Of a DNA stretch of 39,297 nucleotides, positions 14,508-37,815 are shown one piece after another. This DNA is from a virus. Numbering within the stretch: position 1 is the first letter of the stretch; each line of letters opens with the position of its first letter. The notes below the pieces were generated by a model. That model was not told the DNA's origin and did no database searches. It worked only from the letters and a program-made list of their open reading frames with translations. The stretch lies in the IMG/VR virus record IMGVR_UViG_3300003322_000702, positions 1 through 39,297 of that record; one strand, written 5' to 3'. Position numbers and translations under genes: made by a program.

Positions 14508-15071
14508 TTACTGCTCGGACTTCAGCGTCGCGGCAAACTGTTCATGGGTGACGCCCAAGGCCGCGCACAGGGCGACCTGGTTCTCGGTCAGGCCCGCTGC
14601 GTTCGTCGTCTCGGCCGGCGGGTTGCCGTTGGTTTGCATGCCGTTCAGGGCGGCGATGGCCGGCGCCTGGTCGATGAATGCGGACAAGGCCGCCATGTCC
14701 TTGGCGCCCAGGGAGCGTGCCCAGGCTTCCTGCTGGGGCAGTAGCTTGCCGGCGCTCAGGGCATCCTTCACCAACTTGTCGATGCGGCCGGCGTTGGTCT
14801 CACTGGACAGACTGGCGAGTTGGGCCTGCACCGCCTGCATGGCGGCGATAGGGACATACTTGGTCGGGTCAGGTTCGGCCGAGGACAGGCTGACGATGCT
14901 GGTGCGCTGCGCTGCCAGGTAGCCTTTCAGGTCGAACGATGCCGCTGCCGCAGCGGTCGGGTCTTCTTTGATCATGCCGATCAGCTTCTGCAGCTCGGCC
15001 TTGACGTCGTCGGGGGTACTGGTCAGCGGCAGATTGAGCATCCAGCGCAGTTGTTCCAGCAATTCATCCAT
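14508..15071 (-). CDS. Nested scaffold protein Z (internal initiation within the protease gene)
   Basis: Inside the gpI-like gene an ATG at 15071-15069 (MDELLEQLRWMLNLPL) is preceded at six bases by a strong AGGAG, giving a 187-aa helical protein identical to the C-terminal half. Mu makes its scaffold Z by the same in-frame internal start in gene I. The visible ribosome-binding site is the evidence here; the assembly role as removable inner scaffold is by homology. Confidence 0.8.
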   Translation of the reverse strand: MDELLEQLRWMLNLPLTSTPDDVKAELQKLIGMIKEDPTAAAAASFDLKGYLAAQRTSIVSLSSAEPDPTKYVPIAAMQAVQAQLASLSSETNAGRIDKLVKDALSAGKLLPQQEAWARSLGAKDMAALSAFIDQAPAIAALNGMQTNGNPPAETTNAAGLTENQVALCAALGVTHEQFAATLKSEQ

Positions 15072-15632
15072 GGGGTTCTCCTGGGACAGTGGGGTTGGGT
15101 TGGGAAGAGAGAAATGCAGCGTGGCTGCGGACAGCAGCACTTCATCCATGCCATCGATGGCCGGATCGTTGGTGATAGCCGCCATATAAAGAGCGGTGAC
15201 GGCACCAGTTGTCTTGTCATAGCCGATGACCGGCGACGCGAACCTGTATTCGCTGGCCGCGATCATGGCCGAGGCGCGGTCGGTCCATTTGACATCGATG
15301 GCGAAGAGACCAACGCCATCGCGCCACTCCAACTTGGAGAACCAGCCGGCCGCCGGCGCTGGGTTGCCGGTCTTCTTCGCCAGCAGGGTCTGGTGCTCGT
15401 AGTCGATGACATATGGCGTCTCACGGGCGGCCGCCGCGTCGATCAACACCTGCGCCAGCGCAGCGTCAATGTTCCAGAACGGCACATCAGCGGGGCGGCC
15501 ATCGCGGGCGCAAAACTGACCAGCCGGCAGTAGCTGCAGCTCGTTGCCGGTGGACAGTGCGCTGGAACAGGCCGCTACCGCCAGCGCGCCTCCGGCTGCG
15601 TGAGTTGATTGGTGTGTGATTGACTTGGGCAT
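14508..15632 (-). CDS. Mu gpI-like prohead protease with scaffold domain
   Basis: A 374-aa protein matching Mu-like prophage I protein: ELQLLPAGQFCARDGRPADVPFWNID, PYVIDYEHQTLLAKKTG, AAGWFSKLEWRDGVGLFAIDVKW and EYRFASPVIGYDK in the N-terminal protease half. A helical scaffold region follows after residue 188. Processing of scaffold and capsid inside the prohead is the family role. It is the first gene after the late activator site at 15667-15689. An internal start (separate entry) would give the free scaffold. Confidence 0.92.
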   Translation of the reverse strand: MPKSITHQSTHAAGGALAVAACSSALSTGNELQLLPAGQFCARDGRPADVPFWNIDAALAQVLIDAAAARETPYVIDYEHQTLLAKKTGNPAPAAGWFSKLEWRDGVGLFAIDVKWTDRASAMIAASEYRFASPVIGYDKTTGAVTALYMAAITNDPAIDGMDEVLLSAATLHFSLPNPTPLSQENPMDELLEQLRWMLNLPLTSTPDDVKAELQKLIGMIKEDPTAAAAASFDLKGYLAAQRTSIVSLSSAEPDPTKYVPIAAMQAVQAQLASLSSETNAGRIDKLVKDALSAGKLLPQQEAWARSLGAKDMAALSAFIDQAPAIAALNGMQTNGNPPAETTNAAGLTENQVALCAALGVTHEQFAATLKSEQ

Positions 15633-15689: not shown

Positions 15690-15909
15690 CTGTACAGAAG
15701 GGAAAGATGCTCGGGAAGGTAAAAGAGCGGCGCGAAAATCAAGCTTGCCCCCGCGATATTCGAAACAGATCGGAGCGTGATTGCCAAATTTGGCGTGTCA
15801 ATGACTTCGGCAGGCGTCGCACTAGTGCGCGTTACGATTTGCAGACAATTTAACGGGTGTTTAACGCTTGGTTTGGAGCGGGTGTGCGGAAAGCTTCAAG
15901 TTGGGATTC

Positions 15910-15928
15910 AAAAAGCCCGTAGCGGGCT
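15910..15928 (-). terminator. Rho-independent terminator of the cargo operon
   Basis: On the minus strand a perfect 6-bp GC-rich stem AGCCCG/CGGGCT with a 3-nt loop is followed immediately by five U residues, 40 bp after the stop of the second cargo gene. It would isolate the cargo pair from the late head operon. Confidence 0.85.
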
Positions 15929-15967
15929 GAAACGCAACATGGCTACCGCAGGCCCGCTGATCAGGAT

Positions 15968-16342
15968 TTAACCTCCGTTCGCTTGAGGCACAGAAGTATC
16001 CCAGTCGGACGCTTCCATCAGGACAGCGACGTTGGAGCCATCCCCCCATATCGGTGCGCTAAGGCCCCAATAGAAAAAGTGTGCAGTTGCTCCACTGGAT
16101 AATTTCTTTTGACTGCGCTTACCCGCCTTCGTATAAAGGACGACGAGTTCGCCCGCATTTATCTGCTGGTCGGCAAACCAGTACATAGATTGTTGTCGGC
16201 CAGAGGTGCCATTGGAATCGGGACTCTTGCGAGAGCAAAACAGCACATACTGTCCTACGTCAACATTAGTGGTCGCCTTGATTACAACTCGTTCCTTGTC
16301 CGCCACCCCAGCGTCGGGAAATGATCGAATCTTAAGCTTCAT
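15968..16342 (-). CDS. Cargo (moron) gene 2: small soluble beta-rich protein of unknown function
   Basis: A 124-aa protein starting at ATG 16342, which overlaps the stop of cargo gene 1 (ATGA). It begins MKLKIRSFPDAGVADKERVVIKA, has strand-rich segments (VGQYVLFCSRK, INAGELVVLYTKAG) and an aromatic motif HFFYWGLSAPIWGDGSNVAVLMEASDW. No signal peptide or membrane segment. The fold looks like a compact beta sandwich, possibly lamin-tail-like, but this is a guess. Codon and base use are more AT-rich than the surrounding head genes. Tight coupling to a two-TM protein suggests the two work together at the membrane, for example in superinfection exclusion or defence. Confidence 0.75.
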   Translation of the reverse strand: MKLKIRSFPDAGVADKERVVIKATTNVDVGQYVLFCSRKSPDSNGTSGRQQSMYWFADQQINAGELVVLYTKAGKRSQKKLSSGATAHFFYWGLSAPIWGDGSNVAVLMEASDWDTSVPQANGG

Positions 16343-16803
16343 TTCATTTTTACCTTCGCAACGATACCGATAATGACTATGACTATCCCGACTCCCAGAC
16401 AAAGATATCCAGTCGGCTTGTTGGGGTCCCATGCTGATGGTGTGTACCCTAAAATCAAGGCTCCCATGGTCATCATGGCACCATAAACGATATCGGCTGC
16501 GTCTGACGTCTTCAATTTTTCCTGAGTGATGCCCAGTTGAAGTTTGGTTTCATAGTACTTGTCACGATATGGGGTCAATTCGGACTTTTCCTCTTCGAGT
16601 TTGTCTAATTCACCCAAGAGCATTTTTTGAACGCCAGGCTGCGATAGGTCTTCTTGGCTAAGTTCTCGCTTTAGCATGGAATGCGTCTTGCGTGGTTTAT
16701 CGGTGTTCGATGCTACCGGCGTGGCCCCAACCTCGTCAGTTAGTGCATCATGCTCTATTTTTTCGTCTGCGTTTTGCACTTGACAGCAGTCCTTTGTAGG
16801 CAA
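16339..16803 (-). CDS. Cargo (moron) gene 1: coiled-coil protein with two C-terminal TM segments
   Basis: A 154-aa protein. Residues 1-45 are polar and probably disordered; 48-100 are Glu/Lys/Leu-rich and form a likely coiled coil (MLLGELDKLEEEKSELTPYRDKYYETK). Two hydrophobic segments follow at about 105-120 and 132-149, ending in a short basic tail. Predicted inner-membrane protein with a cytosolic coiled-coil sensor-like arm. It is preceded by a 150-bp AT-rich leader with its own promoter and is followed by an overlapping partner gene. It contains no CGTTAAA motif. I do not recognise a family; the layout resembles two-gene exclusion/defence modules carried by prophages. Confidence 0.75.
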   Translation of the reverse strand: MPTKDCCQVQNADEKIEHDALTDEVGATPVASNTDKPRKTHSMLKRELSQEDLSQPGVQKMLLGELDKLEEEKSELTPYRDKYYETKLQLGITQEKLKTSDAADIVYGAMMTMGALILGYTPSAWDPNKPTGYLCLGVGIVIVIIGIVAKVKMK

Positions 16804-16910
16804 TGGTTGTTAAATGTCCCGATCCAAGTTTCAAAAAGTCGAGCAACATGCGAAAGACTTGCCCGTATATCGTTCCAGTCGACCGCAGTCATCGTTGCCG
16901 GCAGCTAGTA

Positions 16911-16916
16911 ATTATA
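16911..16916 (-). promoter_or_regulatory. Promoter (-10) of the cargo operon
   Basis: A consensus TATAAT on the minus strand in an AT-rich island about 110 bp upstream of cargo gene 1. The -35 is weak; a TTGCCA at 16935-16930 is too close (13-bp spacer), so I mark only the -10. An own promoter plus own terminator is the definition of a moron. Confidence 0.6.
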
Positions 16917-16952
16917 AATCAACTACCTTTGGCAACAGGACTGCGCGGGTGG

Positions 16953-17480
16953 CTACAACAGATAGTGCCGAAGTGCATCTAGTATCCTAGCCTCCTCCAC
17001 AGCGTAAAGTGCGCCATCCGGCATGATCGGCAGGAACGGACGCGCAGGGATATCATTCCACAGGTTCGGGAACTGGGCCTTTGTGCCCCCAAACTGCTGC
17101 ATGGCGGCGTAGACCATGGTCGAGCCGACGAGGAGACTGTTCCCTCCGACTACTAACTTGCTAAATTGCTGTGCCAGGTCGCCACTCTCACCCTGCAGCG
17201 GACGCTTGTTGATGGCCAACCTTTGGCCTTTCGCAGTGATCCTGCCGGTCTTGTCGGAAAACCCGCCGCGCCGCCGGATGTAGTTGATGAGCGTTGCCTC
17301 AGAATTCGCGACCCATGTCTTGCCATCTGGACCAGTGGCCGAGGCGAAGCGCTGCTTGGTGCGCTCGATGATGTCATCGCCAATGGCAAGCAGGACCGGC
17401 GACAGGTCGTTCACCTTGTCTGCCGTTCGACTCAAGAGATACTTGACTGCCTGGCTGTCGATCTGGATGTAGCTAGCCAT
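16953..17480 (-). CDS. Phage virion morphogenesis protein, Mu gpG-like
   Basis: A 175-aa protein with family pattern LSPVLLAIGDDIIERTKQRFASATGPDGKTWVANSEAT, then GRITAKGQRLAINKRPLQ and MQQFGGTKAQFPNLWNDIPARPFLPI. This is the Mu gpG / virion morphogenesis family, needed for head-tail assembly. The start ATG at 17480 has AAGG nine bases upstream. It is separated from MuF by the structured 100-nt element at 17504-17603. Confidence 0.9.
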   Translation of the reverse strand: MASYIQIDSQAVKYLLSRTADKVNDLSPVLLAIGDDIIERTKQRFASATGPDGKTWVANSEATLINYIRRRGGFSDKTGRITAKGQRLAINKRPLQGESGDLAQQFSKLVVGGNSLLVGSTMVYAAMQQFGGTKAQFPNLWNDIPARPFLPIMPDGALYAVEEARILDALRHYLL

Positions 17481-17503
17481 GAATTTGCCTTATACTAGGT
17501 AAT

Positions 17504-17603
17504 ATGAACCGGTGAGCTGTGGAAATTCGGAGTCCACAGGCTTGGAAAACCGCCTAGAGCGGCCTGCATGGATGGAGGGACGTCCGGCCTCCCACCGGTT
17601 CAT
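17504..17603 (-). ncRNA. Candidate structured RNA element between MuF and gpG (cloverleaf-like)
   Basis: Read on the minus strand, a perfect 11-bp stem ATGAACCGGTG/CACCGGTTCAT (17603-17593 with 17514-17504) closes three local hairpins: GGAGG/CCTCC (17592-17574), CCGC/GCGG (17562-17550, followed by UUUU) and CTGTGGA/TCCACAG (17539-17517). Together they form a four-way junction like a cloverleaf, but with no CCA end or tRNA consensus. The MuF stop codon lies inside the 5' arm, and the gpG start follows 23 nt after the 3' arm. Stems are visible in the sequence; expression as RNA and function (coupling, processing, packaging signal) are not known. Confidence 0.6.
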
Positions 17604-18874
17604 TTCACCAGCTCGTAGATCCCGCCGATGATCCCTGCCTTGATCGCATCCCCCAGCACCTTGAAGGCCGACACCAGCATGTTGGTCTCCCCCTTGTTCC
17701 TCTTGAGCTTGTAGTCGAATTCGACGGCCAGCTTGGCCACGGCCGGGTCGGCGGACCCGCTTATATAGAGGAGCTTTCCGCTACCGGTGTCGTATAGCAC
17801 TTGGTCGGGGCTGGCCAGCAAGCTCGGTAGCTGCTCCCAATCAGCAACGTTTAACGCATCCCCGGCCGCCTGGTGGCGCGCGGCCTTCTTGCCTACGATC
17901 AGACCATCCTGGACCGCGATCTCGGCCGTGGCCGGCGAGATACCCTTGTTTGTGACCAACCAGTTCAGGATGTCTGAGTCGATGGCGCCGACGACCGCCA
18001 TACGCCCGCGCTTGACCGGATCGGCCAGCACGCCTTGCAGGAATGCCTGGTACATCGCATGCCGCTCGGCCCGAAGCGCTGGTTCTAACACCTGGTACAT
18101 CGCAGCACCGACTGGCGCGTCCAGATTGATCAGCTTGGCGTCGATAAGCGCCTGCAGCGGCTGGGCGGCATTTGCACCTGGTGCATAGTCAAAGCCCTTG
18201 TCGATGCCGACTGGCGCACCGGTCTTCGGATCGATGTCCTGCCAGCCGTCCGGCGGCGCGGCACGACCGGCTGCCTGGGCTTCGGCGTACTCATCCGCAT
18301 CGGCCGAGGTGACGCGGCAGTGGCACCCCCACCCATTTGGGCAGTAATGGGTTTGCCAGAACGGATGGTCATACCTGAGCACCAGGCCGTTCCATGCCAG
18401 GTGCAGCGGCCGTGGATGCATCACGCCGTCGGCGTGGACGTAGCGCCAGTATGGCCGGATCGACAACAGCGCCGGGTCCATAAGCTGCTGCCAGCGGCCC
18501 GCCGCATAGCTGGTGGACATATTGGTCTGGTAGATAACGCGCGTACGCCAGGCCTGGCCAGCGGCGCTGCCTTCGCCCGTCCAGCCGGTCCATCCGTGTT
18601 TGAGGACGATGGCGTTAAAGTCCTTGCGAAACTCCTGCAGGCCGGTGCCTTGCTCGATGGCCTTGGTGATCGCCTGGTGAAAGTCGTTGACCAGGTCGGC
18701 GTTGGCCGCACCGGCGACAATAAAGGCACGATCATGCGCCGCCTTCATGACGTCATCGTAGCGCTCGCTGGGCAGCGCCAGTTTGCGCCGGAAGAAATCC
18801 AACTGCTCGGCAAACGGATTCCCTAGGCGATTGCCGGCTGCGTCCTTACTTGGAAAGGTGACAGCGAACGACAT
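17600..18874 (-). CDS. Minor head protein MuF (Mu gpF-like) with C-terminal nuclease/toxin-like domain
   Basis: A 424-aa protein. The N-terminal two thirds are the MuF family: SYAAGRWQQLMDPALLSIRPYWRYVHADGVMHPRPLHLAWNG followed by HYCPNGWGCHCRVTSAD. This protein attaches near the portal and enters the head. Residues from about 290 on form an extra domain (WEQLPSLLASPDQVLYDTGSGKLLYIS, then AKLAVEFDYKLKRNKGETNMLVSAFKV) that resembles the BECR-type RNase/toxin domains known to be fused to MuF proteins. The start lies 1 bp after the portal stop. Toxin activity is inferred from family knowledge only. Confidence 0.88.
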   Translation of the reverse strand: MSFAVTFPSKDAAGNRLGNPFAEQLDFFRRKLALPSERYDDVMKAAHDRAFIVAGAANADLVNDFHQAITKAIEQGTGLQEFRKDFNAIVLKHGWTGWTGEGSAAGQAWRTRVIYQTNMSTSYAAGRWQQLMDPALLSIRPYWRYVHADGVMHPRPLHLAWNGLVLRYDHPFWQTHYCPNGWGCHCRVTSADADEYAEAQAAGRAAPPDGWQDIDPKTGAPVGIDKGFDYAPGANAAQPLQALIDAKLINLDAPVGAAMYQVLEPALRAERHAMYQAFLQGVLADPVKRGRMAVVGAIDSDILNWLVTNKGISPATAEIAVQDGLIVGKKAARHQAAGDALNVADWEQLPSLLASPDQVLYDTGSGKLLYISGSADPAVAKLAVEFDYKLKRNKGETNMLVSAFKVLGDAIKAGIIGGIYELVK

Positions 18875-33862: not shown

Positions 33863-34344
33863 GCGTCACTCCCGAAAAGGACGAGTTCCGGCTGCGACAC
33901 CTTTTGCACGTTGCTACGCTGGTAAGCCAATTGCGACAAGGTGTTTGTCAGGGCTGAAACAGTTTCGTCAACGCCTTCGCCTGTTTGGTAGAAGCGGGAA
34001 AGCAGCGTGATCGCTTCGGCACAGTTTCCTTGCACTTCCGCCAGATCAGCAACGTCAGCCTTTTTCCCGACTGGAATAGAAACAACGACTTTGTCGCCAT
34101 GCGCGAGGCACAGGTACTCGCTCATAAATGCACAGCCACAGAACGCTTCAAACTGGCGAATCCGGTTCGATGGCATCGACGTGTCCGACAGCCAGCGATA
34201 GAGCGTCTTTACTTCTACCCCCATGAGATCGCTCAGCACCTTTATCGGGCGACGGTGCGCAGCCGCGAATTCGACGCAAAGTTCCATTGCCTCGCTCAGG
34301 CTAGTGGCGTGAATTGATTTCCAGCGCCTTTTTCTCAATGACAT
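33859..34344 (-). CDS. Early HTH-containing phage protein
   Basis: A 161-aa protein; ATG 34344 is preferred over a GTG two codons upstream because GGAG stands nine bases before it. It contains RRPIKVLSDLMGVEVKTLYRWLSDTSMPSNRIRQFEAFCGCAFMSEYL, a Cro-like HTH, and a helical C-terminal half. The position between ner and the transposase suggests an early regulator. Molecular targets are unknown. Confidence 0.75.
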   Translation of the reverse strand: MSLRKRRWKSIHATSLSEAMELCVEFAAAHRRPIKVLSDLMGVEVKTLYRWLSDTSMPSNRIRQFEAFCGCAFMSEYLCLAHGDKVVVSIPVGKKADVADLAEVQGNCAEAITLLSRFYQTGEGVDETVSALTNTLSQLAYQRSNVQKVSQPELVLFGSDA

Positions 34345-34404
34345 ATTCACAACTCCGAGAAATATGAGAATGGTGTTAAATCCAATGAGGACCTAAGATT
34401 CGAT

Positions 34405-34728
34405 TCAAGCAGCGGTCTGCAACAGAGACTGCGAAGACTGGGAAGACTGGGAAATCTTCTGCGAGAGGGGCGTTAAAACTGGCGTAAAATTGCGTTTCGC
34501 GTAACGGAGCGGCCAGATCGTCTCCGGGGTGACACCGATAGCTGCCGCGATGATTCGTTCCGCCTTCGGGTACGGGCGTTCAAGGGCTGCTTTCAAAGTT
34601 CCTGCCGCCAGTCCGCTTTGCAAAGACAGGGCGCGCAGTGACCAGCCCTTCTTATGCAGCTCGGCAACGATATCCGCACGATGCTTGTCTTCGATAGCGG
34701 ATTTTTTTGGCTCGTTGGATGTATCCAT
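34405..34728 (-). CDS. ner: Ner-like DNA-binding regulator
   Basis: A 107-aa protein of the Ner/Nlp family: DIVAELHKKGWSLRALSLQSGLAAGTLKAALERPYPKAERIIAAAIGVTPETIWPLRY. In Mu, Ner represses the early and repressor promoters after lytic onset. It is the first early gene, about 25 bp downstream of the inferred start of the early transcript. AAGGAAAG precedes the ATG. A Ser/Gln-rich tail (SQKISQSSQSSQS) is unusual but probably harmless. Confidence 0.93.
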   Translation of the reverse strand: MDTSNEPKKSAIEDKHRADIVAELHKKGWSLRALSLQSGLAAGTLKAALERPYPKAERIIAAAIGVTPETIWPLRYAKRNFTPVLTPLSQKISQSSQSSQSLLQTAA

Positions 34729-34760
34729 GATCTTTCCTTGTTGGGTTAGCTCGTGAGCAC

Positions 34761-34810
34761 ATCATAAGCGTGAAGTACTGTGAAGTCAAGCTGTGTAGAT
34801 TGCTTCACAG
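34761..34810 (-). promoter_or_regulatory. Early promoter (Pe) with overlapping operator half-sites
   Basis: On the minus strand TTGACT (34789-34784) and TATGAT (34766-34761) are separated by 17 bp, close to the sigma70 ideal. GTGAAG half-sites occur at 34770 and 34780 (plus orientation). An imperfect palindrome CTGTG-x10-CACAG (34791-34810) borders the -35. Binding of repressor or Ner here would block RNA polymerase. Confidence 0.82.
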
Positions 34811-34865
34811 AGCGATTCCAGCGGAGTCGCGGTAAGTAATTGATTTAACTGATATTGATTCGCAT

Positions 34866-34910
34866 CTAGTGTGTAGGCATCTACACACTAGGTTTCTCTG
34901 GAGTGTGTAG
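34866..34910. promoter_or_regulatory. Operator: perfect 26-bp palindrome plus an extra half-site at the repressor start
   Basis: Arms CTAGTGTGTAG and CTACACACTAG (34866-34876 and 34881-34891) flank GCAT. A third copy of AGTGTGTAG at 34902-34910 overlaps the Shine-Dalgarno and GTG start of the repressor gene. This looks like a repressor operator with autoregulation. Related half-sites (CTGTGTAG, CTGTGAAG) extend into the early promoter. Confidence 0.75.
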
Positions 34911-35368
34911 TGACGAAAATGTACACAGCGGCTGAGATCGCAGAAATGGGCCTGCCTGGCTTGCCGGGCACAAAGAGGGCCATCCTAACCAGAGCGGAGA
35001 AGGAAGGATGGCCGTATGAGGTCAGATTGGGGCTAGGCGGTGAACGGAAGGTGTTCGTTGTCCCGTCCCGGTATCTGCCTGATGTCGAAGCAACTACCGA
35101 GGCCTCCCAAACGCCTGCGGAGCGCATGTTGGCGCCCAACAAGGGCGCTGTAGTCGGCGCAGTTGTCGCCGGCAGCGCACAAGGCGATATGGACCGCATT
35201 CAACTCGTTGTGCGCGCTGTCAGCGAGTGGGAAAGGGAGCGCGGGGTAAAAATCAGCGACGATAGGAGGCCCGCAGTGATCGCCGTCCTCTACGACTACG
35301 TCAAAAAGGCCGAGGAGTCAGGAGAAGCAGAACTCGGGATCGAACGCTTTTTGAAGGCGCTTGGATAG
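34910..35368 (+). CDS. Mu-type phage repressor (c-like)
   Basis: A 152-aa protein transcribed opposite to the early operon. Residues 4-55 (YTAAEIAEMGLPGLPGTKRAILTRAEKEGWPYEVRLGLGGERKVFVVPSRYLP) are a Mu-type HTH paralogous to the transposase N-terminus, as in Mu c and MuA. The remainder is a helical oligomerisation region. The GTG start at 34910 is chosen because GGAG lies seven bases upstream; an ATG three codons later is farther from it. It should hold the early promoter off and compete for transposase sites. Confidence 0.9.
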   Translation: MTKMYTAAEIAEMGLPGLPGTKRAILTRAEKEGWPYEVRLGLGGERKVFVVPSRYLPDVEATTEASQTPAERMLAPNKGAVVGAVVAGSAQGDMDRIQLVVRAVSEWERERGVKISDDRRPAVIAVLYDYVKKAEESGEAELGIERFLKALG

Positions 35369-35389
35369 AATTGGTGACTATTTATTGCA

Positions 35390-35442
35390 TTTCATAAATA
35401 TACAATAGTTTACTTTGTTCAATAACTATTGCATTTATGAAA
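35390..35442. repeat. AT-rich imperfect long hairpin downstream of the repressor
   Basis: TTTCATAAATATACAATAGTT (split here as TTTCATAAAT and CAATAGTT) pairs with AACTATTG and ATTTATGAAA at 35424-35442. This gives 18 paired bases with a 2-nt bulge and 13-nt loop. Very AT-rich in a GC-rich phage. It may terminate repressor transcription, be an operator for the following small frame, or bend DNA at the left end. Confidence 0.6.
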
Positions 35443-35784
35443 CACAAAGAACACACGGTAAGTATCATTAAAGCCATTCTCGATGCCGCAGTCATCGGCT
35501 CTCTGGACGCGCGTCGAGCGTGTTTCCAATGGCTGTCGGGGACACGAAATATCACACCAGCGAATGACGCTATTTTTAACGGTGGCGATGCACAACACCG
35601 CTCAAAGGCAAAACAAACCTGCGTCAAAAAGGTCGCGAAACCGATCAAAACGTTAGCGGTTTTTCGCAGTTTCTGCAAAAAGGTGGCGACGGGCAAAATC
35701 GGGACAACAGCCCGTCGTTACTGGGGTTTCTGGGATTTGGAACCTATCGGACCCGGCGTCAAAACAATCACTCCCCCACACTAG
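35437..35784 (+). CDS. Doubtful small ORF at the phage left end
   Basis: A 115-codon frame without a ribosome-binding site whose ATG lies in the arm of the AT-rich hairpin. It is Lys/Arg/Thr-rich (KKVAKPIKTLAVFRSFCKKVATG) because it reads through the phased terminal repeats. Its stop codon (TAG 35782-35784) lies just past the inferred phage end and would come from host DNA. It is most likely not a gene, but a short basic protein cannot be excluded. Confidence 0.25.
   Translation: MKHKEHTVSIIKAILDAAVIGSLDARRACFQWLSGTRNITPANDAIFNGGDAQHRSKAKQTCVKKVAKPIKTLAVFRSFCKKVATGKIGTTARRYWGFWDLEPIGPGVKTITPPH
35575..35780. other. Presumed left end with phased transposase-site-like repeats
   Basis: GGTGGCGA/GGTCGCGA occurs at about 35581, 35631 and 35682, spaced 50-51 bp (about five helical turns). 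GCGTCAAAA occurs at 35621 and 35756, the second 17 bp inside the inferred end. One CGTTAAA motif overlaps the first repeat. The terminal bases at 35779-35780 would be CA on plus (TG on minus), and CTAGC would be the 5-bp target copy. Supported by layout, not by a second end in view. Confidence 0.5.
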
Positions 35785-35841
35785 CGTTAGCAACTACGTC
35801 ATGTTAGCATTGTAAAATATATATTTCTTTACATAAATAAT

Positions 35842-37815
35842 ATGCCGTTCCGCAGACCCGTCTTGCTGGCTGCCGTGTTGTTCACGTTGGCCCATCCTGC
35901 ATCGTCCAGTGCCGCACTTACCATCGACGAGGTCACCAAGGAAGAGTGGATCGAGGTAAGCAGTACGAATTTTCGGGTGGTCACTGAGCAGCCGGAAAAG
36001 GTGGCCCGGCAAATGGTCATCGATCTCGAAAACCTGCGCTATATATCGAACCGTCTGCGCGGCGCGACATCATTGGACGGGCCGCCATTGACCATCGTGG
36101 CGGTGGGAAAGAACAGCGCCGAGGCGTTGCAGATACCCAAAGACTTCGAAGGCATCTTCCAGTTGTCGCGCAAGGGCTACGCGGCAATCGCCAAGGTGTC
36201 GGATGACTGGTGGCTGAGCCAGCGCATAGAAAATTCCCGTGACGTCTTCCTGCACGAATATCACCATTTTTTATTGGGGTACAGCCCGGAATCGACCGCC
36301 TATCCTCTCTGGTATAACGAAGGCATGTCGGAATACTGGTCGTCGATGCAGATCGAGGATGGCAAGGCATGGTTTGGCGACCATAGCCGTAATTTCGGGC
36401 GCGAGATGAACCTGACCGGCACGCACGGCAAGATCAACTTCGACACGCGTTCCCTGTTCAACCGCACAACTTTGAATCAGATCCTGTCTGATGCCGACAA
36501 GGCGGAAAATGCCCGCTTTTACAGCCGCGCACGTTTCGCCATCCATTATTTCAATTCCACGCCCGAGTTGCGTCAGCAATTGGCACGCTACCTGCGCCTG
36601 TACAATATGGGCTTGTCGCAGGACCAAGCCGTGCGTATCGCATTCAAGCAGTCTTATGATGAACTCGATGCGGGATTGCGCACCTACGTGGCGAAAAACA
36701 TGGTCAAGCGCGGCTTTGACATTGGGCCTGATGGCTTGAACCTGCCCCAGTTCGACGTGAAGGTTACCCGGCTCGACCGTGCGGCGGCGGTTGCCGTGCT
36801 CGTCGACGTTATGCCACGCTTCATCCCTCCGGACAGCCTGGTGATCAGGCAACTGCTCACGGTGAATTTTGCTGTCAACCTCAACGATCCGAACGCGCAT
36901 GCGCTCGACCTTGAGCTTGAGCTTGGACATGGGCGCACCACCGTGCGCGAGGCCGTAGAGAAAGTGGAGAAACTGGAAACCCGTTTCCCAAACAATCCAC
37001 GCCTGCTAGCGCTGCACGCCGACATCCTGGCGAACGTCGCCATCCAGTTCCACGCCTCCGGTAGCAAGGAATGGGGAGCAAGCGTGGAACAGGCGCGCGG
37101 GCTGTATCGCCGATCGATCGCAGCCAGCACGTTCAACCCCCGGGCCTTTTCCGGGCTCGGCGCCCTCTACGCCGCCGTACCGGAACTGAATCCGGTCGAC
37201 GAGGGCATTGCCGCCCTTGATACGGCGGTCATTTACGAGAGGCGGCCCCAATTGTTCCGCGCCCTTGCCGACCTTTATTTGCGCAAGAAGGACTTACACG
37301 CAGCACTCTCAAGCATGCGCAACGCCGTCGCATTCAATACCCAGGAACAGCGCCCGTTCGATGTCCTGCTGCTGGAAAACCTCGAACTGCTGATGGACCT
37401 GACACAAGCGATCCCAACCGCGAGCGGCCTGAGTTTCAAGAGCGGCGCGACCTACACCGGCCCGCTGCGCGATGGGAAGCCCGAAGGCAGCGGCACCTGG
37501 CTGCGTCTGGATGGCTCGTCCTATGAAGGAGAATTCAAGGACGGTTTGCCATCGGGGCACGGTATGCTGAAGAGCGAGCGCGGCGACCTCTATGACGGCG
37601 CCTTTGCGAACGGCTATGCGTACGGAAAAGGAACCATGACTTTTTCACGGGGCAAGATGAAGTCATACGACGGTGAAGTCGTCAACGCCACCCCGAACGG
37701 TGCGGGTGTGCTGACCACGCGTGATGGCCGCGTGGCGGCGACGTTCCGGAACGGCGTAGCGGTCAATGGTGGCAACTCGCCCCCGGCCCGGCCTGCCATC
37801 AGCCAGACGCCCTAG
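35842..37815 (+). CDS. Host secreted gluzincin-type metallopeptidase-like protein with TPR and MORN repeats
   Basis: A 657-aa host protein. Signal peptide at 1-25 (PVLLAAVLFTLAHPASSSA). Peptidase MA/DUF1570-like domain with HEYHH at 138-142 as zinc-binding HExxH and LWYNEGMSEYW with Glu160 as third ligand. TPR-like helices at about 390-520. MORN repeats at the C-terminus (TYTGPLRDGKPEGSGTW, YEGEFKDGLPSGHGML, YDGAFANGYAYGKGTM). Probably periplasmic. No Shine-Dalgarno precedes the ATG. The prophage ends 61 bp upstream, so its native promoter may have been displaced. Confidence 0.82.
   Translation: MPFRRPVLLAAVLFTLAHPASSSAALTIDEVTKEEWIEVSSTNFRVVTEQPEKVARQMVIDLENLRYISNRLRGATSLDGPPLTIVAVGKNSAEALQIPKDFEGIFQLSRKGYAAIAKVSDDWWLSQRIENSRDVFLHEYHHFLLGYSPESTAYPLWYNEGMSEYWSSMQIEDGKAWFGDHSRNFGREMNLTGTHGKINFDTRSLFNRTTLNQILSDADKAENARFYSRARFAIHYFNSTPELRQQLARYLRLYNMGLSQDQAVRIAFKQSYDELDAGLRTYVAKNMVKRGFDIGPDGLNLPQFDVKVTRLDRAAAVAVLVDVMPRFIPPDSLVIRQLLTVNFAVNLNDPNAHALDLELELGHGRTTVREAVEKVEKLETRFPNNPRLLALHADILANVAIQFHASGSKEWGASVEQARGLYRRSIAASTFNPRAFSGLGALYAAVPELNPVDEGIAALDTAVIYERRPQLFRALADLYLRKKDLHAALSSMRNAVAFNTQEQRPFDVLLLENLELLMDLTQAIPTASGLSFKSGATYTGPLRDGKPEGSGTWLRLDGSSYEGEFKDGLPSGHGMLKSERGDLYDGAFANGYAYGKGTMTFSRGKMKSYDGEVVNATPNGAGVLTTRDGRVAATFRNGVAVNGGNSPPARPAISQTP

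Follow-up and report, generated by a model that had tools for sequence, protein, structure and literature searches.

A probable mobile moron cassette encoding a coiled-coil membrane protein and a predicted lamin tail domain protein in the gpG-protease I gap of a Mu-like phage

What do two small genes do that stand between the core head genes of a Mu-like phage? The phage is an IMG/VR virus record (IMGVR_UViG_3300003322_000702), identified as Mu-like by its set of head genes, and the window, meaning the whole stretch of DNA analysed, covers 39,297 nucleotides. The interval from the gpG-like virion morphogenesis gene (16953-17480, minus strand; PF05069, Phage_tail_S) to the protease I/scaffold gene (14508-15632, minus strand; PF10123, Mu-like_Pro) measures 1320 bp, lies on the minus strand throughout and contains two genes. 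Gene 1 (16339-16779, minus strand) opens with a GTG behind AAAGGA and encodes 146 aa; an alternative, longer form with a TTG start reaches 16803, but the GTG at 16779 is probably the true start since it has a good ribosome-binding site and since 146 aa fits the length of the homologues. Gene 2 (15968-16342, minus strand) encodes a single-domain protein of 124 aa, and its start lies within the stop of gene 1, so that the two co-oriented open reading frames overlap by 4 nt (ATGA). The GC content of the gap is 50%, compared to 62% in the flanks. An earlier note, made from the letters of the sequence only, had described an AT-richer two-gene unit inserted among core head genes, read it as a candidate for superinfection exclusion or anti-phage defence, and proposed a survey of the same gap in related prophages and structure prediction. 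Reading frames, overlap and composition bear out the unit, and Pfam matches on both sides of it (Phage_tail_S, Mu-like_Pro, Phage_Mu_F, Portal_Mu and gpT) confirm its neighbors as core head genes. A second low-GC stretch (51-53%) is found at 34001-36000, towards the right end of the window.

The survey of the gap covered 14 viral loci and 73 from genomes, each encoding a related gpG, together with JBD30 and a Klebsiella phage, and the upstream (gpG) and downstream (protease I) borders were located with profiles of the two genes. Both border genes were present on one stretch in 32 phages, the window included. The gap measured 89-255 bp in 14 of these, 364 bp in one and 703-2680 bp in 17; these sizes include distant relatives, the borders follow ORF starts and are possibly off by tens of bases, and individual gaps may be shorter or longer where protease I begins at a GTG or TTG. 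The mean GC deficit relative to the flanks was 11 points in filled gaps and 2 points in empty ones. The content was different in almost every relative: AcrF1-Aca1 in JBD30, BrnA/BrnT (L067), an HTH protein with an IrrE peptidase (L015, L081), a HEPN protein of 330 aa on the strand opposite the late genes (L004:6633-7625), a D12 methyltransferase (L018), DUF2971/PDC-S31 (L040), the PADLOC candidate PDC-S42 with a match of 9e-97 (L048:1482-2426), a DUF488 gene with a convergent PDC-M19B-like gene (L052:6628-7864), a PLD-domain protein with weak similarity to DrmC (L058), and a TPR-like protein (L002). The last of these phages is the closest relative of the window (71% gpG) and thus carries another gene in the gap, and L016 and L017 carry none. 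With 32 phages and cargo this variable, the survey clearly identifies the gap as a hotspot. The view that the pair belongs to the invariant, late-expressed core genes of the family, which the earlier note had set against its own proposal, does not agree with the changing content of the gap or with the recurrence of the pair in unrelated phages described below. Two observations concern the other cargo. The L052 genes match both parts (M19A and M19B) of a PADLOC candidate system, and similar-looking cargo proteins of 314-333 aa are encoded at L048:1482-2426 and L085:6616-7617, in Halomonas and Halothiobacillus loci.

In Pseudomonas Mu-like phages the region between gpG and the protease has been described as a low-GC region of plasticity (PMC4378225), and anti-CRISPR genes are found there as an independent module between protease/scaffold and gpG (PMC4704812). 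Since this slot is the one used by anti-CRISPR genes, the main rival to an exclusion function is an anti-defence cassette, in which one or both of the proteins would inhibit CRISPR-Cas or another defence system of the host. The pair occupies exactly the slot of the acr-aca1 operons of JBD30, DMS3 and similar phages, and like them it consists of small AT-rich genes that form a separate unit, possibly with its own control, at a phage hotspot and not in a bacterial defence island. However, neither an Acr nor an Aca is encoded: in place of them we find a membrane protein and a predicted lamin tail domain (LTD) protein. The pair lacks the HTH gene of Aca type (neither window protein gave an HTH match, and gene 2 is predicted to be nearly all-beta), a membrane protein with two transmembrane (TM) helices is unusual for an Acr, relatives carry a mixture of cargo at this site, toxin-antitoxin and defence candidates among it, and one copy of the pair adjoins a gene of RmrA type. 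We consider an anti-defence role unlikely, though it is the rival to be taken most seriously.

The empty sites of relatives indicate where the cassette entered. A doublet of the motif CGTTAAA, with copies 11 bp apart, is located at 15849-15866 (minus strand) between the cargo and the protease, and its spacing before protease I is kept in several relatives. Two phages with empty gaps (L017 and L023) retain the doublet 11 bp apart, a third (L016) has it as TTTAACG, and in these it lies about 100-150 bp before the protease. Set against these three empty sites, the insertion falls after the gpG stop and before the doublet; the gaps are too dissimilar in sequence to give base-exact borders. The doublet thus appears to mark the downstream limit of the insertion; as it lies beyond the terminator of the cargo, the cassette would occupy the space from gpG up to the probable regulatory stretch in front of the protease, leaving that stretch intact. 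This terminator, a feature already proposed in the earlier note, is an intrinsic-terminator-like stem-loop (AGCCCGCTACGGGCT followed by TTTTT; 15914-15928, minus strand) directly behind gene 2. The number of such matches in the region is not above chance, though this one is correctly placed. The evidence for a promoter of the pair's own is more divided. An exact TATAAT, the candidate -10 element, is present about 130 bp upstream of gene 1 (16911-16916, minus strand), but no consensus -35 is recognisable upstream of gene 1, and the two exact copies of TATAAT in the whole window are about the number given by chance. No full sigma-70 promoter was found either here or upstream of the pairs of relatives, where promoter scans gave no common consensus, and no inverted repeats that could serve as operators were seen within the cargo. 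The reported absence of CGTTAAA from the cargo holds, with no copy from 15867 to 17849, but it is a weak sign of autonomy because other 2-kb stretches of the phage lack the motif as well. In the whole window CGTTAAA occurs 37 times, on both strands and also inside genes, compared to 2.1 occurrences expected by shuffling; it is also frequent in L002, L016 and L017, but the examined 9 kb of JBD30 contain no copy. This pattern resembles that of a binding site spread over the genome and used by a phage protein.

To the databases the pair is anonymous. Neither protein matched Pfam, NCBIfam or PHROGs, or PADLOC-DB 2.0.0 at E <= 10, and single-sequence searches with either of them gave no match in phages, viral contigs or genomes. 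The family was entered through a weak tblastn match on a Hymenobacter plasmid (E 4e-4, 94% coverage) that carried the motif H.FYWG...W. A two-row profile from this match led to two phage contigs, and later profile rounds to four more contigs with gene 1 or gene 2 and to one bacterial contig. The window proteins are 30-44% identical to their homologues (E 1e-16 to 1e-35). Complete pairs are present in L093, L094, L101, L107 and L111, all five with gene 1 before gene 2 and a 4-nt overlap. L106 and L105 each hold one half of the pair at the end of a provirus, since these records end exactly between the two genes. The carriers differ in their core genes: L093 has a lambda-type portal and a GpA terminase, L094 an HK97-type capsid and a TMP_3 tape measure, and L101 and L105 another type of tape measure. 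As judged from their sequences they are unrelated phages. Outside the window the pair neighbors tape measure, terminase or RmrA genes and keeps to no single head position. In L093, L094 and L101/L105 it lies on the strand opposite to the late genes and hence outside their late transcript. The window pair shares its orientation with the late operon, so that late expression is possible there.

The family appears rare, with one hit, from a family-level sample around Psychrobacter, in about 1,900 bacterial genomes sampled by pattern-based scans that depend on conserved peptides; about 400 genomes each from the order of Herbaspirillum, its phylum, the class of Phenylobacterium and the class of Pseudomonas yielded no pair. 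The surroundings of several copies are of interest in their own right. In L107, a virus contig of 60.9 kb, the pair directly adjoins an RmrA-like (RosmerTA) HTH-IrrE gene with a match of 6e-66, preceded by an unrecognised ORF of 201 aa (L107:4006-5759). The bacterial-contig copy stands beside an LRAT-like ORF (L111:1241-1687; weak Pfam match) whose C-terminus includes a hydrophobic segment. Two copies of a stand-alone relative of gene 2 lie on a Hymenobacter plasmid (L091:5001-5378 and NZ_CP049908.1:4733-5041), and the copy that was examined has no gene 1 next to it.

Alignment of the homologues gave gene 2 a recognisable signature. The motif that had looked conserved from the single sequence, HFFYWG...W, is indeed the best-conserved part of the protein. 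Between L101 and L105, the single close pair available, dN was 0.022 and dS 0.465 (dN/dS about 0.05, one comparison over 118 codons). A dN this far below dS shows gene 2 to be a maintained protein under strong purifying selection in this comparison. A single-sequence AlphaFold model was poor (pLDDT 49.5) and was discarded. The model built with six homologous sequences was a confident beta sandwich (pLDDT 83.5, pTM 0.76). In Foldseek the top 13 rows for this model were all nuclear lamin tail domains, and in VIA the top 12 rows were all lamins (Z 7.0-10.4, 92-94 residues aligned, rmsd 2.5-3.0), the best of them reaching Z 10.4 over 94 residues compared to Z 5.0 for the next unrelated fold. Among viral models, no fold match had an E value under 0.001. 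When the PDB was searched by sequence, the proteins hit only chance-like entries such as complement C3 or photosystem II PsbZ, which were set aside. The YWG...W region is shared with a tblastn hit in Haloarcula (H62) that is a Pfam LTD, and hhalign aligned the gene 2 family profile with a haloarchaeal LTD protein at a probability of 92%, a weak profile match. The Pfam LTD model itself (PF00932) matched neither gene 2 nor its Hymenobacter relative at E <= 10, and for that reason we call the protein LTD-fold and not a member of PF00932. Gene 2 is thus predicted, from a model that rests on six homologues, to adopt the LTD fold, an Ig-like beta sandwich, outside the Pfam family. The PF00932 proteins, known from bacteria, archaea and eukaryotes, share this predicted fold, but gene 2 lies below the detection limit of the Pfam LTD model. 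It also stands alone, whereas the haloarchaeal LTD is a single domain within a larger protein, and by eye gene 2 shows no signal peptide. The statement that no known system is recognised therefore stands for the databases, with the qualification that gene 2 can now be placed by its predicted fold.

Ig-like folds are common among decoration proteins. Gene 2 might accordingly be a capsid decoration or head protein and gene 1 an assembly or lysis helper, both expressed late. The position within the head gene cluster and the shared orientation fit such a role, as does the accessory candidate decoration gene h located nearby in Mu-like relatives (PMC4378225). A structural role is nevertheless very improbable: the pair is absent from the close relatives L002, L016 and L017, it is turned against the late genes in the phages named above, it is found beside genes other than those of one head position, and the partner of gene 2 is a membrane protein with two TM helices.

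Gene 1 had been described as a coiled-coil protein with two TM helices, and homologues carry two hydrophobic helices at equivalent positions. The window protein has an acidic N-terminus, the conserved RREL..EL...G.QKMLLDELDRLE coiled coil, a two-TM hairpin and a basic C-terminus. Across the family the N-terminus is acidic and variable, followed by the conserved block RREL....EL...G.Q.MLLDE(I/L)(D/E)RLE and the coiled coil; the first TM helix bears a glycine-rich GS...G(F/Y)AP..W motif in most members, and after it come the second TM helix and a short basic tail. Weak Pfam matches of single gene 1 members (Crescentin rod, Cep57, resolvase) were judged to be coiled-coil noise. Positive charges are found on both the N-terminal and the C-terminal side of the hairpin and are nearly missing from the loop, and by the positive-inside rule this makes an N-in/C-in topology likely. 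A small membrane protein with a conserved glycine-rich hairpin, in a gene order and overlap that are invariant in every complete copy, could also belong to a toxin-antitoxin or addiction system. Gene 1 would then be a membrane-damaging toxin and gene 2 an LTD-fold antitoxin, stabilising the prophage with abortive infection as a by-product. BrnTA and HTH-IrrE pairs do occupy the same hotspot. Yet no toxin-antitoxin family matches the pair, gene 2 has no DNA-binding domain, the long conserved coiled coil of gene 1 exceeds the needs of a pore peptide, and the order of membrane protein before soluble partner is not diagnostic. We regard this explanation as rather unlikely.

Located between core genes, absent from relatives and deviating in composition, the pair very probably is a mobile two-gene moron cassette of several unrelated temperate phage types. 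The claim that it is autonomous cargo coupling a membrane protein with a soluble one is well supported by the variable content of the gap and by the recurrence of the pair in unrelated phages, mostly against the late genes. Accessory prophage genes between core genes that protect the lysogen are represented by the morons tab of Pseudomonas phage JBD26 and gp15 of HK97, but those are single genes with other mechanisms (virion assembly and superinfection exclusion, respectively). Closer in layout are RexA/RexB, gp44/gp43 of CarolAnn and gp30/gp31 of Sbash, prophage pairs of one membrane and one soluble protein. The CarolAnn and Sbash genes are two-gene exclusion systems with a RexAB-like division of labor between membrane and soluble partners, and the Sbash pair is expressed in the lysogen from its own promoter (PMC6426606). 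They differ from the window pair, whose membrane partner combines a coiled coil with two TM helices in place of four and whose soluble partner has a predicted LTD fold and is not a DUF4747 protein.

On the strength of the site, the neighbors, the mobile spread of the pair among phages, the orientation against late genes, the gene overlap and this RexAB- and CarolAnn/Sbash-like layout, we infer an exclusion or defence module, and put that function at slightly under an even chance. Taken as a whole, the best explanation is a moron cassette with an exclusion or defence mechanism at the inner membrane, a reading we hold at even confidence. The pair would be expressed in the lysogen from its own promoter. 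Gene 1 would form an N-in/C-in hairpin in the inner membrane, oligomerise through its cytoplasmic coiled coil and act as the effector, and the cytosolic LTD protein would bind that coiled coil as sensor or adaptor. Upon infection by a second phage the membrane complex would block DNA entry or open the membrane, and superinfection would fail. Labor would thus be divided as in lambda RexA/RexB or CarolAnn gp44/gp43, with unrelated proteins. The cassette could instead confer another lysogenic-conversion trait, such as envelope stress, membrane organisation or a receptor change, with no anti-phage role; a separate unit in prophages that encodes a coiled-coil membrane protein would suit this, and the LRAT-like ORF beside the bacterial-contig copy agrees with it. 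Against it, the site and the neighbors of the pair are rich in defence and anti-defence genes, and we find such a trait quite unlikely.

Returning to the exclusion module, a more specific version can be offered tentatively, as a less than likely possibility: a new, mobile two-protein immunity system in which the cytosolic LTD protein senses the phage and triggers its membrane-anchored coiled-coil partner, a split counterpart of the domain pair of lamin. The literature searched did not link LTD domains to defence against phages. The likeness of the coiled-coil/LTD pair to the domains of nuclear lamins may be convergence. Earlier authors have raised a possible prokaryotic origin of the lamin LTD and its fusion with a coiled-coil protein (PMC5630835). 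An operon in prokaryotes that brings together an LTD-fold protein and a membrane protein with a coiled coil is relevant to that idea, and does not prove descent.

What was an anonymous gap in a phage genome now stands for a defined gene family open to testing: a conserved operon, passed among unrelated phages, which in the window lies at a known anti-CRISPR site. The gpG-protease slot is a hotspot of defence and anti-defence genes well beyond Pseudomonas, and its cargo can aid in finding further systems. If the pair blocks phages, it would be a new exclusion system and would give the lamin tail fold a role in the conflict between phages.
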